Shown: positions 31,362 to 34,570 of the stretch, piece after piece
Layout: each line of letters starts with the position of its first letter
How positions within the stretch are numbered: the first letter of the stretch is position 1
From: Chryseobacterium daeguense DSM 19388
GTDB taxonomy: Bacteria > Bacteroidota > Bacteroidia > Flavobacteriales > Weeksellaceae
Length of the DNA: 64,000 bases
Direction: 5' to 3'
NCBI RefSeq assembly: GCF_000430825.1
Contig: NZ_AUMT01000005.1
Span: 124,001-188,000 of the forward strand
The notes under the pieces: model-generated
Seen by the model: the letters and a program-made list of their open reading frames with translations, nothing else
The model's database searches: none
What the model was told of the DNA's origin: nothing
Program-made: the position numbers and the translations under genes

Positions 31362-33170
31362 CTAATTCTCCTTAAAAGTATTCATCAGTTTATCCAAATT
31401 TAAGCTTCTTGCCGATGCATCAAAAATTTCGCGATATATTCCGTTGATTTGTACCAATTCATCATGAGTTCCACTTTCTACCACCCTTCCTTTTTTCATC
31501 ACATAAATTTTATCAGAATCCAAAATCTGCGAAAGAGAATGAGAAATAATAATCACGGTTCTTCCTGCTTTTATGGCATCCAAAGAATTTTTGATCTGCT
31601 CAGTGGCGATGGCATCCAGACTTGCAGTAGGCTCATCCAGGAAAATGATTGGCGGATCTTTTAAGAATAATCTTGCAATGGCAATTCTCTGCTGCTGACC
31701 TCCGGAAAGCTGGGTAGCATCGTGATTATAGCCGTCCGGAAGGTCTAAGATCTGATCGTGGAGATATACTTTTTTTGCTGCTGCTTCAATTTCTTCAAAA
31801 GTAGCGTTCATATTTCCGTAGCGTATATTATCTTCGATACTCCCCTGAAAAATGTGGTTTTTCTGAAGCACCAATCCTAAATCATCCCTTAAAAAAGTAT
31901 TTTCAAAATTATTTAAATTAACTCCGTCCAGCAGGATTTCCCCGGAATCAGGAAGGTAAAATTTACACAAAAGATTGATTACTGTTGATTTTCCGGCACC
32001 ACTCAGGCCGACCAGAGCGGTCGTTTTACCATTTTCTATTTTCATGGAAACATCATGCAATGCCTTAGTTCCGTTGGGATAAGTAAAATTGACATTCTTT
32101 AGTTCAAAATTTCCTTTGATATCTTTTTCCACAAAATTTCCGTTGGGCTCTTTTTCATTTTCAGCATTTAAAATATCAAAATAACCCTCTGCGTAGATCA
32201 TCGCATCATTCATATCATCATAAATCCTGTGAAGCTGGCGGATAGGAGACGAAACATTATTGAAAAGCATGATGTGAAGCATGATAGCACCGATTGTCAT
32301 TTGCTGGTCCAGCACCAGATAAACCGTCAGAAGAATAATTAAAACCACCCCAAACTGCTCAATGAAAGTCTTTAAACCATCATAAATAAAATTCGTTTTT
32401 CTGGTGAACATCTGGCTTTCCATCAACTGCATCTGGAGATCGTATTGTTTTTTTCCTTCAAATTTTTCCCGGACAAAACTTTTAATAACCATAATGGAAT
32501 TAATTAAATTCAAAAGCCCGGAAGTTTTCTGTTCACGCTGATTTCTCAGGGTTCTCCTTACTCCGCCAAGTTTTTTTGCCTGTAATGAGCTTATCCAAAA
32601 ATAAATCGGGACAATAATGGTAGAAACAATTCCTACATACACATTCTGCATATACATGATAACCAACGCGATAATAGAATTGGAAAACAGTGGAAGCATA
32701 TCTATGAAAAAATTTTGCACAAGCCTTGTTAAGCTTTCAATCCCCCTGTCGATCCTGATCTGAAGCTTTCCCGATTCATGGTTTTCATCATTAAAATAAG
32801 CCACGCGATACGTTAAAATCTTGTCGATTGCAGATTGTGCAAGCACCGAGCTTACATTGATTCTGATTTTTTCACCATAAAATTTCTGCCCAAAATTGAT
32901 GAAGATATTTAACAATTCTTTCCCCAATAGAATAATGGTTATCACCACCAGGATATGAATTCCCTCGGACATCGGATGTGGAAGATGCGTCAATTTTGTC
33001 ACCTCATCCACCGTATATTTTAAAACCAGTGGATTCACCTGCGCCGCCAAAGCTCCTAAAAATGTAAGGAATAAAGTTCCGTAAATCATCAGCCGGTAAG
33101 GTCTGATGAACGGGATCAGCTGTTTGTAAATTCCGAATAAGGTGACTGTTCTGTTGAAAGGTTTTGCCAT
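31362..33170 (-). CDS. ABC exporter with fused membrane and ATPase domains
   Basis: The 602-residue half-transporter has a type I exporter membrane domain (about 1-330, six predicted segments) and a nucleotide-binding domain (about 350-590). Walker A is GLSGAGKST, the signature LSGGQQQRIAIARL, Walker B IIFLDEPTASLD, and the H-loop IISHSL. It would work as a homodimer, or pair with another half. Family members export lipids (MsbA), peptides or drugs; nothing here fixes the substrate. The WYL regulator follows on the same strand with no terminator between. Confidence 0.93.
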   Translation of the reverse strand: MAKPFNRTVTLFGIYKQLIPFIRPYRLMIYGTLFLTFLGALAAQVNPLVLKYTVDEVTKLTHLPHPMSEGIHILVVITIILLGKELLNIFINFGQKFYGEKIRINVSSVLAQSAIDKILTYRVAYFNDENHESGKLQIRIDRGIESLTRLVQNFFIDMLPLFSNSIIALVIMYMQNVYVGIVSTIIVPIYFWISSLQAKKLGGVRRTLRNQREQKTSGLLNLINSIMVIKSFVREKFEGKKQYDLQMQLMESQMFTRKTNFIYDGLKTFIEQFGVVLIILLTVYLVLDQQMTIGAIMLHIMLFNNVSSPIRQLHRIYDDMNDAMIYAEGYFDILNAENEKEPNGNFVEKDIKGNFELKNVNFTYPNGTKALHDVSMKIENGKTTALVGLSGAGKSTVINLLCKFYLPDSGEILLDGVNLNNFENTFLRDDLGLVLQKNHIFQGSIEDNIRYGNMNATFEEIEAAAKKVYLHDQILDLPDGYNHDATQLSGGQQQRIAIARLFLKDPPIIFLDEPTASLDAIATEQIKNSLDAIKAGRTVIIISHSLSQILDSDKIYVMKKGRVVESGTHDELVQINGIYREIFDASARSLNLDKLMNTFKEN

Positions 33171-33187
33171 AGGGAATTGTTTTAACT

Positions 33188-33226
33188 AAAAAAACGCACC
33201 GTTTTACAAGAGAAAAGGTACGTTTT
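33188..33226 (-). terminator. Terminator of lptB and the 84-residue gene
   Basis: On the minus strand AAACGTACC and GGTGCGTTT pair with a mismatch, TTTT/AAAA extend the stem, and seven Ts follow. It lies 28 bases past the stop of the 84-residue gene. Confidence 0.7.
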
Positions 33227-33254
33227 ATTCTATTTTTCAGCAAATGATTTTAGA

Positions 33255-33509
33255 TTAAATATCTTTTAGACTCCCATCATCATTTATGTACTTAAATTTA
33301 TAATCTTGATTTATAATTCTTCCTCCTAAATCAAAAAAACTTCCCCGCATAGAAAACCAATCTTCAATATCATCTTCTTTTGGAGTATCCCAACGAATAA
33401 TTGTTGAGAGTTTATCTGCTTTAAAATCAATGATACCGCCATATTCATTCTCTAAAAAAACTTTAGTCCCGGGAATAAAATCTTTATAAATATCTGAATG
33501 ATCGCTCAT
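33255..33509 (-). CDS. Uncharacterised 84-residue protein coupled to lptB
   Basis: The small acidic protein has no signal peptide or membrane segment. I do not recognise its family. It reads as a compact beta-rich domain with conserved-looking features: VFLENEYGGIIDFKADKLS, IIRWDTPKEDDIEDW, and GSFFDLGGRIINQDY. Its ATG shares one base with the lptB stop (TAATG), so translation is coupled, and a terminator follows. The coupling to an lptB with an extra C-terminal domain suggests the two products act together. An immunity-protein-like role is conceivable but only a guess. Confidence 0.75.
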   Translation of the reverse strand: MSDHSDIYKDFIPGTKVFLENEYGGIIDFKADKLSTIIRWDTPKEDDIEDWFSMRGSFFDLGGRIINQDYKFKYINDDGSLKDI

Positions 33510-34570
33510 TATCCTTCGTATATATAAGTCGTAAGATAATGAAGTTCCGGCTTGCTTGCTTCCTTCGATTCTGCTTCAGCCTGCTCCATGGAGTATTGTG
33601 AATTAATTTCCTTACGTTGAAACACGAAAGAATTATTGGCGTTTTTATCTACAACATCATTAAAAATATGCTCAATCTCCGAATTGGCCAACGATGCAAA
33701 GCTGATATCTTCAAAACCGTACATTAGCCTCAGGTCATCATATTGAGAGAAGTTTTCATCTACAAACCCCTGAAGCTGTGACTTTGAATCAAAATTTCCT
33801 GCCCAGATATTGTATGCGTATCTTTTCTTTTTCGGTTTGTCTAAAATACTCTGATAAACGAAGTTTTCACCAAGATAAGCTTCCCTTACCTGAGGATCAT
33901 TCGCCAGATCTTCCGGAAGGCCTTCTTTCAAAATCCTTCCTTCAAACATGATGTAGGTTTTATTGGTAATCGCCAACGTCTGCTGAACGTTGTGATCCGT
34001 GATCAGAATCCCGATATTTTTATCAACCAGACTTCTTACAATTTTCTGAATATCTTCCACAGCAATGGGGTCTACCCCGGCAAAAGGCTCATCCAGAAGG
34101 ATAAAATTCGGGCTTGTTGCCAGACAGCGTGCGATCTCCGTTCTACGTCTTTCTCCTCCGGACAAAAGGTCTCCCCTGTTTTTACGAACGTGCTGTAGTG
34201 AGAATTCTTCAATCAGCTCATCACATTTGATCTGCTGCTCACGCTTCGAAAGTTTTGTCAATTGTAAAACTCCCATGATATTTTCTTCCACGGAAAGTTT
34301 TCTGAAAACGGATGCTTCCTGGGCAAGATAGCCAATTCCTTTTTGTGCCCTGCGGTACATAGCGTCTGTGGTGATTTCCTGTTTGTCCAGGAAAATTTTA
34401 CCTGAAGTAGGTTTAACCAATCCTACAATCATGTAAAATGAAGTGGTTTTTCCTGCCCCGTTCGGACCAAGCAAACCAACAATTTCTCCCTGCTGAACCT
34501 GTACAGAAACGCCTTTTACAACTTTTTTAGGACCGTATTCTTTGATTAAGTTTTCTCCGCGTAAAATCAT
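33509..34570 (-). CDS. lptB: LPS export ATPase LptB with a C-terminal extension
   Basis: Residues 1-240 are a standard LptB, the ATPase that drives lipopolysaccharide extraction with LptFG: Walker A GPNGAGKTT (35-43), signature LSGGERRR (137-143), Walker B FILLDEPFAGVDP (156-168), H-loop TDHNV, and the family C-terminus DPQVREAYLGENF. LptB normally stops there at about 240 residues. Here 110 residues follow: YNIWAGNFDSKSQLQGFV (253-270), FEDISFAS (286-293), an acidic Glu/Ala stretch (about 328-340) and LHYLTTYIYEG at the end. By memory this tail resembles immunity protein 22 (DUF4284), not verified. It is one uninterrupted frame. The stop overlaps the start of an 84-residue gene. Confidence 0.92.
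   Translation of the reverse strand: MILRGENLIKEYGPKKVVKGVSVQVQQGEIVGLLGPNGAGKTTSFYMIVGLVKPTSGKIFLDKQEITTDAMYRRAQKGIGYLAQEASVFRKLSVEENIMGVLQLTKLSKREQQIKCDELIEEFSLQHVRKNRGDLLSGGERRRTEIARCLATSPNFILLDEPFAGVDPIAVEDIQKIVRSLVDKNIGILITDHNVQQTLAITNKTYIMFEGRILKEGLPEDLANDPQVREAYLGENFVYQSILDKPKKKRYAYNIWAGNFDSKSQLQGFVDENFSQYDDLRLMYGFEDISFASLANSEIEHIFNDVVDKNANNSFVFQRKEINSQYSMEQAEAESKEASKPELHYLTTYIYEG

Follow-up and report, generated by a model that had tools for sequence, protein, structure and literature searches.

The window analysed here is the whole stretch of 64,000 nucleotides from Chryseobacterium daeguense DSM 19388, and the features of interest are grouped around its lptB gene, which encodes the ATPase of lipopolysaccharide (LPS) export (Table 1). 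Related loci agree with this origin: 239 were found, and the 80 with names that were kept all belong to Chryseobacterium. The gene is one open frame of 353 amino acids. Residues 3-238 match the model LPS_export_lptB (TIGR04406) with 359.3 bits against a cut-off of 240, which places the protein in this equivalog family; the Walker A (GPNGAGKTT), signature (LSGGE), Walker B (LLDEP), and YLGENF (residues 232-237) motifs are all present, in columns that are invariant among 53 aligned tailed sequences. The canonical ATPase extends to about residue 241 and is followed by a linker and a domain of about 104 residues, together called the tail below. The sequence-only reading of this DNA had described an LptB frame running on to residue 353, and this is borne out, because the frame is single and TIGR04406 covers residues 3-238 only; the landmarks that it gave were also found in place after YLGENF, with YNIWAGNF near the start of the tail and LHYLTTYIYEG at its end.

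Table 1. Features at the lptB locus, with positions in the window
Feature	Position	Strand	Basis or remark
lptB, LPS-export ABC ATPase with C-terminal extra domain	33509..34570	-	ORF, TIGR04406
Canonical LptB C-terminal motif EAYLGENF, residues 230-237	33860..33883	-	mean top-residue share 0.99
Linker, LptB residues 238-249 (VYQSILDKPKKK), short and basic	33824..33859	-	FVYQ invariant in 53 tailed rows
Extra domain, LptB residues 250-353	33512..33823	-	AF2, hhalign to DUF4284, purifying selection
Helical hairpin of the extra domain, residues 285-306 (GFEDISFASLANSEIEHIFNDV)	33653..33718	-	per-element entropy, predicted secondary structure
84-aa ORF, accessory gene outside the LptB feature	33255..33509	-	overlaps lptB stop (TAATG)
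ABC exporter (ABC_membrane and ABC_tran), common next gene	31362..33170	-	Pfam domains

The small ORF that was said to start inside the lptB stop codon does so (TAATG), and from this overlap the gene probably uses the lptB transcript. Its product had been described as belonging to no known family, in agreement with our searches of Pfam, NCBIfam, and PADLOC, none of which returned a family at E up to 1; its sequence is akin to the C-terminal part of longer proteins, of about 190-195 aa. The sequence-only reading had further regarded lptB and the 84-aa gene as coupled. Such a functional unit would be in line with the stop/start overlap and with the presence of homologues directly after lptB in 15/118 distinct tailed loci (nine short, five long of about 195 aa, and one interrupted copy). 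However, no homologue follows lptB in the other 103 of these 118 loci. Among 148 genomes of the same family, homologues were detected in 14 at E 0.01, five of them beside lptB, eight elsewhere, and one a chance match (G022; E 0.007 in an 828-aa frame); seven of the eight genomes with a copy elsewhere have a short LptB and one is tailed, and some of these eight copies are partial or broken (L162, L164, L165). Since the lptB tail and the 84-aa gene vary independently, the coupling is refuted, and that the two genes act as one unit is scarcely credible. The 84-aa gene looks like an unrelated accessory passenger.

The interval between lptB and the ABC exporter (window positions 33171-33508) corresponds to a variable insertion spot in related loci. 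Across the 118 loci, the gap is up to 110 bases in 59, 111-200 bases in five, and more than 200 bases in 35, while no exporter is in reach of lptB in the remaining 19. The cargo of the gap includes the 84-aa or the ~195-aa gene, a pair of genes of 149 and 400 aa on the other strand (presumably an Rrf2-type regulator and a flavohaemoglobin), a 359-aa gene, and genes for repeat proteins of 550-600 aa; the occupation of the same gap by unrelated cargo argues further against a functional unit. One long passenger protein matched PF16562 (E 2.8e-5, below the cut-off), which is a eukaryotic family, and this match was set aside. A relative of about 190 aa (L160) lies between putative phenylacetate-degradation genes, which we take to form an operon, and this setting is another sign of the mobility of the 84-aa family.

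According to a survey of LptB lengths, which the sequence-only reading had suggested, the extension is not unique to one strain and is more general than first noted. LptB was found in 143 of the 148 same-family genomes at E 1e-90, and it is tailed in 60 of these 143 genomes and in 15/33 genera. The other 83 LptBs match the ATPase part only, with matches that end at query residue 241-279 (stops read through), and 20 short LptBs fetched from these 83 measure 242-258 aa. A search with the tail alone gave matches in 61/148 genomes at E 0.01, including one in G068 (E 0.00995) that we judged to be chance, as it falls within what we take to be a glycosyltransferase frame. At the order level, tail matches were obtained in 38/296 genomes, 37 of them inside the family and one outside it (G507), which was rejected as chance (33 residues, E 0.008); at the phylum level, all matches (7/296 genomes) were inside the family. 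Outside the family, no convincing tail was found in the order and phylum samples of 296 genomes each. A tailed LptB (L115, G093:C261) was also observed in a genus, g23, whose other sampled members have a short LptB; the contig that carries this copy is 8 kb long, and as the assembly consists of 390 contigs and is 5% contaminated, the copy may be a contaminant.

The length of the tailed protein is closely held. The 129 tailed LptB rows were picked by a match to the tail or to the full protein; some genomes contribute two rows, and no row was removed on account of its length. A length of exactly 353 aa is shared by 121 of them, and the whole set falls within 350-355 aa. The median dN/dS was 0.057 in the tail (residues 253-353) and 0.006 in the ATPase, and the value for the tail was below 0.3 in 258/258 usable pairs; this calculation used 110 distinct 353-aa coding sequences and pairs with a gene-wide synonymous divergence of 0.15-0.8. 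A rougher run that included near-saturated pairs gave 0.015 for the ATPase and 0.064 for the tail. These figures indicate that the tail evolves faster than the ATPase, yet is clearly constrained. In the same 353-aa set, the median dS was 0.50 in the ATPase part and 0.91 in the tail of the same gene, and the lower value of the ATPase part perhaps reflects codon constraint there.

The structure of the tail, whose prediction had been recommended along with the length survey, was modelled with AF2 for residues 236-353 from the 53 aligned tails, with a mean pLDDT of 86.2 and a pTM of 0.78. The predicted elements follow the order β-α-β-α-α-β-α-β, which would make the tail an alpha+beta domain of ferredoxin-like arrangement, into whose middle a helical hairpin is inserted; by this predicted fold, the protein would be an ABC ATPase with a folded C-terminal domain. 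The first helix of the hairpin is the best-conserved element of the tail (mean entropy 0.56 bits), and the first and last helices and the last strand of the tail have entropies of 1.2 to 1.9 bits; the hairpin is thus a candidate binding surface. A disordered or strain-specific quirk is ruled out by the number of tailed genomes, the confident fold, the dN/dS values, and the held length.

Searches for structural counterparts of the tail were mostly negative. A sequence search of solved structures with the tails or with DUF4284 gave nothing below E 0.05, and Foldseek gave no match of the tail model to the PDB and viral models at E 0.001 or better. In VIA-align, the best Z of the tail model was 6.4, and the rows included ribosomal S6, ACT domains, and FtsX, which may mean merely a common arrangement. 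The C2 domain of MetN has a ferredoxin-like fold; MetN was absent among the best 50 VIA-align rows for the tail model. The AF2 model of full-length LptB was of low confidence (pLDDT 64, pTM 0.44). A match of the tail to NCBIfam BH0509_fam (E 0.06) was set aside.

The sequence-only reading had compared the tail with Imm22 (DUF4284, PF14112), and several comparisons bear on this likeness. When the 53 tails were searched against Pfam at E up to 10, PF14112 was picked by 38 of them and the next family by 12, although the tails are related and their picks are not independent. The tail of the window reached 12.6-13.4 bits against PF14112 (E 0.14-0.24), short of the gathering cut-off of 27 bits; the best E among the 53 tails was 5.8e-4, and in none of the 148 genomes did the PF14112 model match lptB at E 0.01. 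Standalone DUF4284 proteins were then gathered with the Pfam model as a comparison set. An hhalign comparison of the 53 tails with 11 of these proteins scored 37.7 (p 6.4e-6, prob 84.9), while the controls reached at most 20.3 in 100 column shuffles, 11.5 with the reversed alignment, and at most 20.6 with 14 unrelated alignments. With a wider set of 15 DUF4284 proteins, the score was 38.5 against a maximum of 23.5 in 200 shuffles, with an aligned part of 23 columns only; with 77 tails, p was 2.3e-5 and only 19 columns were aligned. Most of the match comes from the first 20-25 residues of the tail. It was strongest with the genus's own standalone DUF4284 proteins (score 39.3) and weak (23.9, p 0.0023) with three other DUF4284 proteins from outside the core-gene set, two of which were judged the most Imm22-like. 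Since a search with the tail HMM at E 0.01 missed the standalone DUF4284 gene, it is the profile-profile comparison that carries the case for kinship.

Individual residues give a mixed picture. In the founding description, as far as its passage on this family goes, Imm22 is marked by a tryptophan, a tyrosine, and an acidic residue (PMC3482391). The pattern Y-x-[IV]-W-x-G is present in 127/129 tailed rows, so that the tails share the conserved tryptophan of Imm22. An aromatic-x-D-x-D pattern, drawn up after viewing the DUF4284 set, occurs in 15/15 DUF4284 proteins (in one of them, N replaces the aromatic residue and the first D) and in 0/77 tails. As the cut-off is missed and the acidic motif is absent, yet the profiles are similar, the tail should be regarded as a relative of DUF4284 and not as a member: it is probably a distant relative of DUF4284/Imm22 without the acidic motif, judging from these sequence comparisons. 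The likeness noted earlier is therefore supported as distant kinship (p ~6e-6), and it fails at the Pfam cut-off and at the acidic motif. Viral contigs searched with the DUF4284 alignment gave nothing, a plasmid search gave two weak records only (one of them unannotated), and PHROGs gave weak matches only, at E 0.02 or worse.

The immunity-like tail had also been proposed to link envelope export with toxin protection or regulation. Among seven neighbours of lptB scanned in the window with Pfam, no toxin family was recognised, so that the setting of an Imm22 gene beside a polymorphic toxin was not seen at lptB; two of these ORFs have no Pfam family, and the recognised neighbours are the ABC exporter, a WYL regulator, DinB, cobalamin adenosyltransferase, and a HemB-type ALAD. 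With the PF14112 cut-off missed, the acidic motif lacking, and no toxin neighbour, an immunity function is not indicated. The standalone DUF4284 genes point in the same direction. They were found in 19/20 genomes of the window's genus (e.g., L152, G000:C3:310621-310989), and in two of four loci inspected (L138 and L144) the gene adjoins DNA polymerase I, which was confirmed with Pfam for L138, while the other two (L141 and L152) have other neighbour genes, none of which was read as a toxin. The standalone DUF4284 of the genus is apparently a core gene of unknown role that carries an immunity-protein label, and its near-universal presence, with no toxin read beside it in the four loci inspected, weakens the step from Imm22 likeness to toxin protection. 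A tail working as an immunity domain, protecting LptB or the cell from a toxin, would fit its distant DUF4284/Imm22 kinship and the setting of one standalone DUF4284 gene (L133 in G023), which lies directly downstream of an RHS-like frame (weak RHS Pfam match, E 9e-4, below the cut-off). Against the features just described, and against the stable inheritance of the tail within a core gene, this function appears highly improbable. The immunity link is partly supported as ancestry, not as function. In a separate locus (L183, G675:C3:9841-10236), a 276-aa frame has an N-terminal DUF4284 and, by eye, a second, diverged copy.

Short LptBs bear on the gain and loss of the tail. Of the 20 fetched, 17 stop at about residue 242 after YLGENF-[RKT]-[FY] (nine as YLGENFRFEKI), and the other three (L197, L200, and L205, from three genera) end in an FVYQD stub that resembles the start of the tailed linker. 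A search of the three stub genomes gave no tail at another place, and the 160-240 bases after the stops of their lptB genes showed no tail remnant; the stubs are either natural tail losses or pre-fusion relics. In a tree of 47 ATPase parts, from the 20 short forms and 27 of the 129 tailed rows, one clade with support 95/90 holds 26/27 tailed forms and all three stub forms. The stub form L205 groups with the tailed L124 (support 96/94), and the tailed L123, from a 56% complete assembly, falls outside the main clade with weak support. The tree as found requires five changes of the tailed label, at least three of them forced by well-supported branches, so the history of the tail is not clean. In topology tests, a clade of all tailed and stub forms was compatible with the data (p-AU 0.473), and a clade of the tailed forms alone fitted worse (p-AU 0.0735).

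The simplest history is perhaps one gain and at least one loss, though more events are possible: the ancestor shared by Chryseobacterium and some 14 related genera perhaps acquired the tail in a single event, and inheritance since then has been mostly vertical. Some lineages no longer have the tail, which is therefore dispensable for LPS export as such. A functionless leftover of the fusion, merely tolerated, would be compatible with at least one loss, with the grouping of a stub form and a tailed form (L205 and L124), and with the bare FVYQ stub kept by the three short forms; nevertheless, we consider it quite unlikely, given the length of 350-355 aa in all 129 rows, the low dN/dS of the tail, the invariant tail residues across 53 rows from many genera, and the confident predicted fold.

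According to the sections on the C terminus in a study of E. coli LptB, its last residues (230-241) make up a short helix and a loop that lie at the dimer interface, beneath the ATP sites, and alanine at Y234, L235, G236, or F239 abolishes its function (PMC6703430). In the same sections, C-terminal tags or a 34-residue extension impair E. coli LptB, an effect that is attributed there to dimerization and turnover (PMC6703430). The four residues are kept here as Y232, L233, G234, and F237 of the YLGENF motif, with the offset to the E. coli numbering taken from aligned solved LptB chains. Since this conserved C-terminal motif stands directly before the tail, the tail is joined to LptB at a point where additional residues have an effect on the dimer cycle. 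Tailed and short forms are not told apart by the positions equated with the E. coli suppressors G33, L35, T43, R144, and R198, and at the one corresponding to T45 both have S or T; there is thus no sign of co-adaptation at these positions.

Taken together, we lean towards the reading, at somewhat better than even confidence, that the tail is an accessory domain of LptB, a probable DUF4284 relative, which most likely regulates LPS export, and that the 84-aa gene is unrelated to it. By analogy with other transporters, we infer that the tail sits at the base of the LptB dimer and serves there in regulation or docking. Such arrangements have precedents, as the ABC ATPases MetN, with its C2 domain, and ModC are described as regulated through C-terminal domains in part of one report (PMC10710835), and a C-terminal extension of MlaF has been proposed to promote dimerization, according to the relevant part of another (PMC7367683). 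The tail of LptB would bind a cytoplasmic ligand or partner, perhaps via the conserved helical hairpin, and this binding would bias how the LptB dimer closes or reopens, in a manner that may be likened to the C2 domain of MetN or the C-terminal extension of MlaF.

The tail might instead be a docking adaptor that tethers LptB to a clade-specific cytoplasmic partner, e.g., an LPS-synthesis enzyme, and leaves ATP turnover unaffected. The conservation of the helical hairpin would suit such a role. Immunity proteins act by binding a partner protein. DUF4284/Imm22 proteins belong with these by prediction, as stated in the passage that founded the family (PMC3482391), which adds to the appeal of a docking function. 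However, the gene that follows lptB differs between loci, and nothing beside lptB was recognisable as a partner gene; of the neighbours scanned in the window, none is evidently connected with LPS, and we hold pure docking to be possible but rather doubtful.

A folded domain placed where tags disturb E. coli LptB would be a natural experiment on dimer closing and the control of LPS export, and the short forms of sister genera and the tail-loss lineages are ready comparisons. As a more specific and tentative idea, an immunity-protein fold derived from DUF4284 may have been domesticated as a built-in brake or sensor at the dimer-closing end of LptB, in which case LPS export in the tailed clade would be controlled in the cytoplasm and post-translationally, in a manner absent from bacteria with a short LptB; it would be a case of a toxin-immunity-related domain that has become part of core envelope machinery. 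Among the matches listed from the open-licence literature, there was no report of a C-terminal extension of LptB, and no paper on DUF4284 was found in that literature; the LptB passages of two papers (PMC10787497 and PMC12645872) do not mention such an extension.

Compared with known systems, the protein shares with E. coli-type LptB (TIGR04406) the full ATPase, the ABC motifs, and the essential YLGxxF C-terminal motif, whereas E. coli LptB ends at residue 241 and the protein described here has 112 residues beyond its own residue 241, predicted to form a folded domain. The tail resembles DUF4284/Imm22 in its first strand and helix (Y-x-I-W-x-G-x-F, then helix), a GFED stretch, and the last strand; it differs in being about 15-30 residues shorter, fused to an ATPase, and below the Pfam cut-off, and in having neither the aromatic-x-D-x-D motif nor a recognised toxin neighbour. 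The C2 domain of MetN, from the MetNI methionine importer, is likewise a regulatory domain C-terminal to an ABC ATPase, as far as the source describes it (PMC10710835); C2 binds methionine and regulates an importer, whereas LptB2FG is an exporter, and the two are likened by description only. Finally, the extension of MlaF in MlaFEDB is also a C-terminal addition to the ATPase of an envelope-lipid transporter, as given in the corresponding part of its report (PMC7367683), but it comprises about 25 residues of mostly extended coil and is not a globular domain, unlike the predicted tail of LptB.
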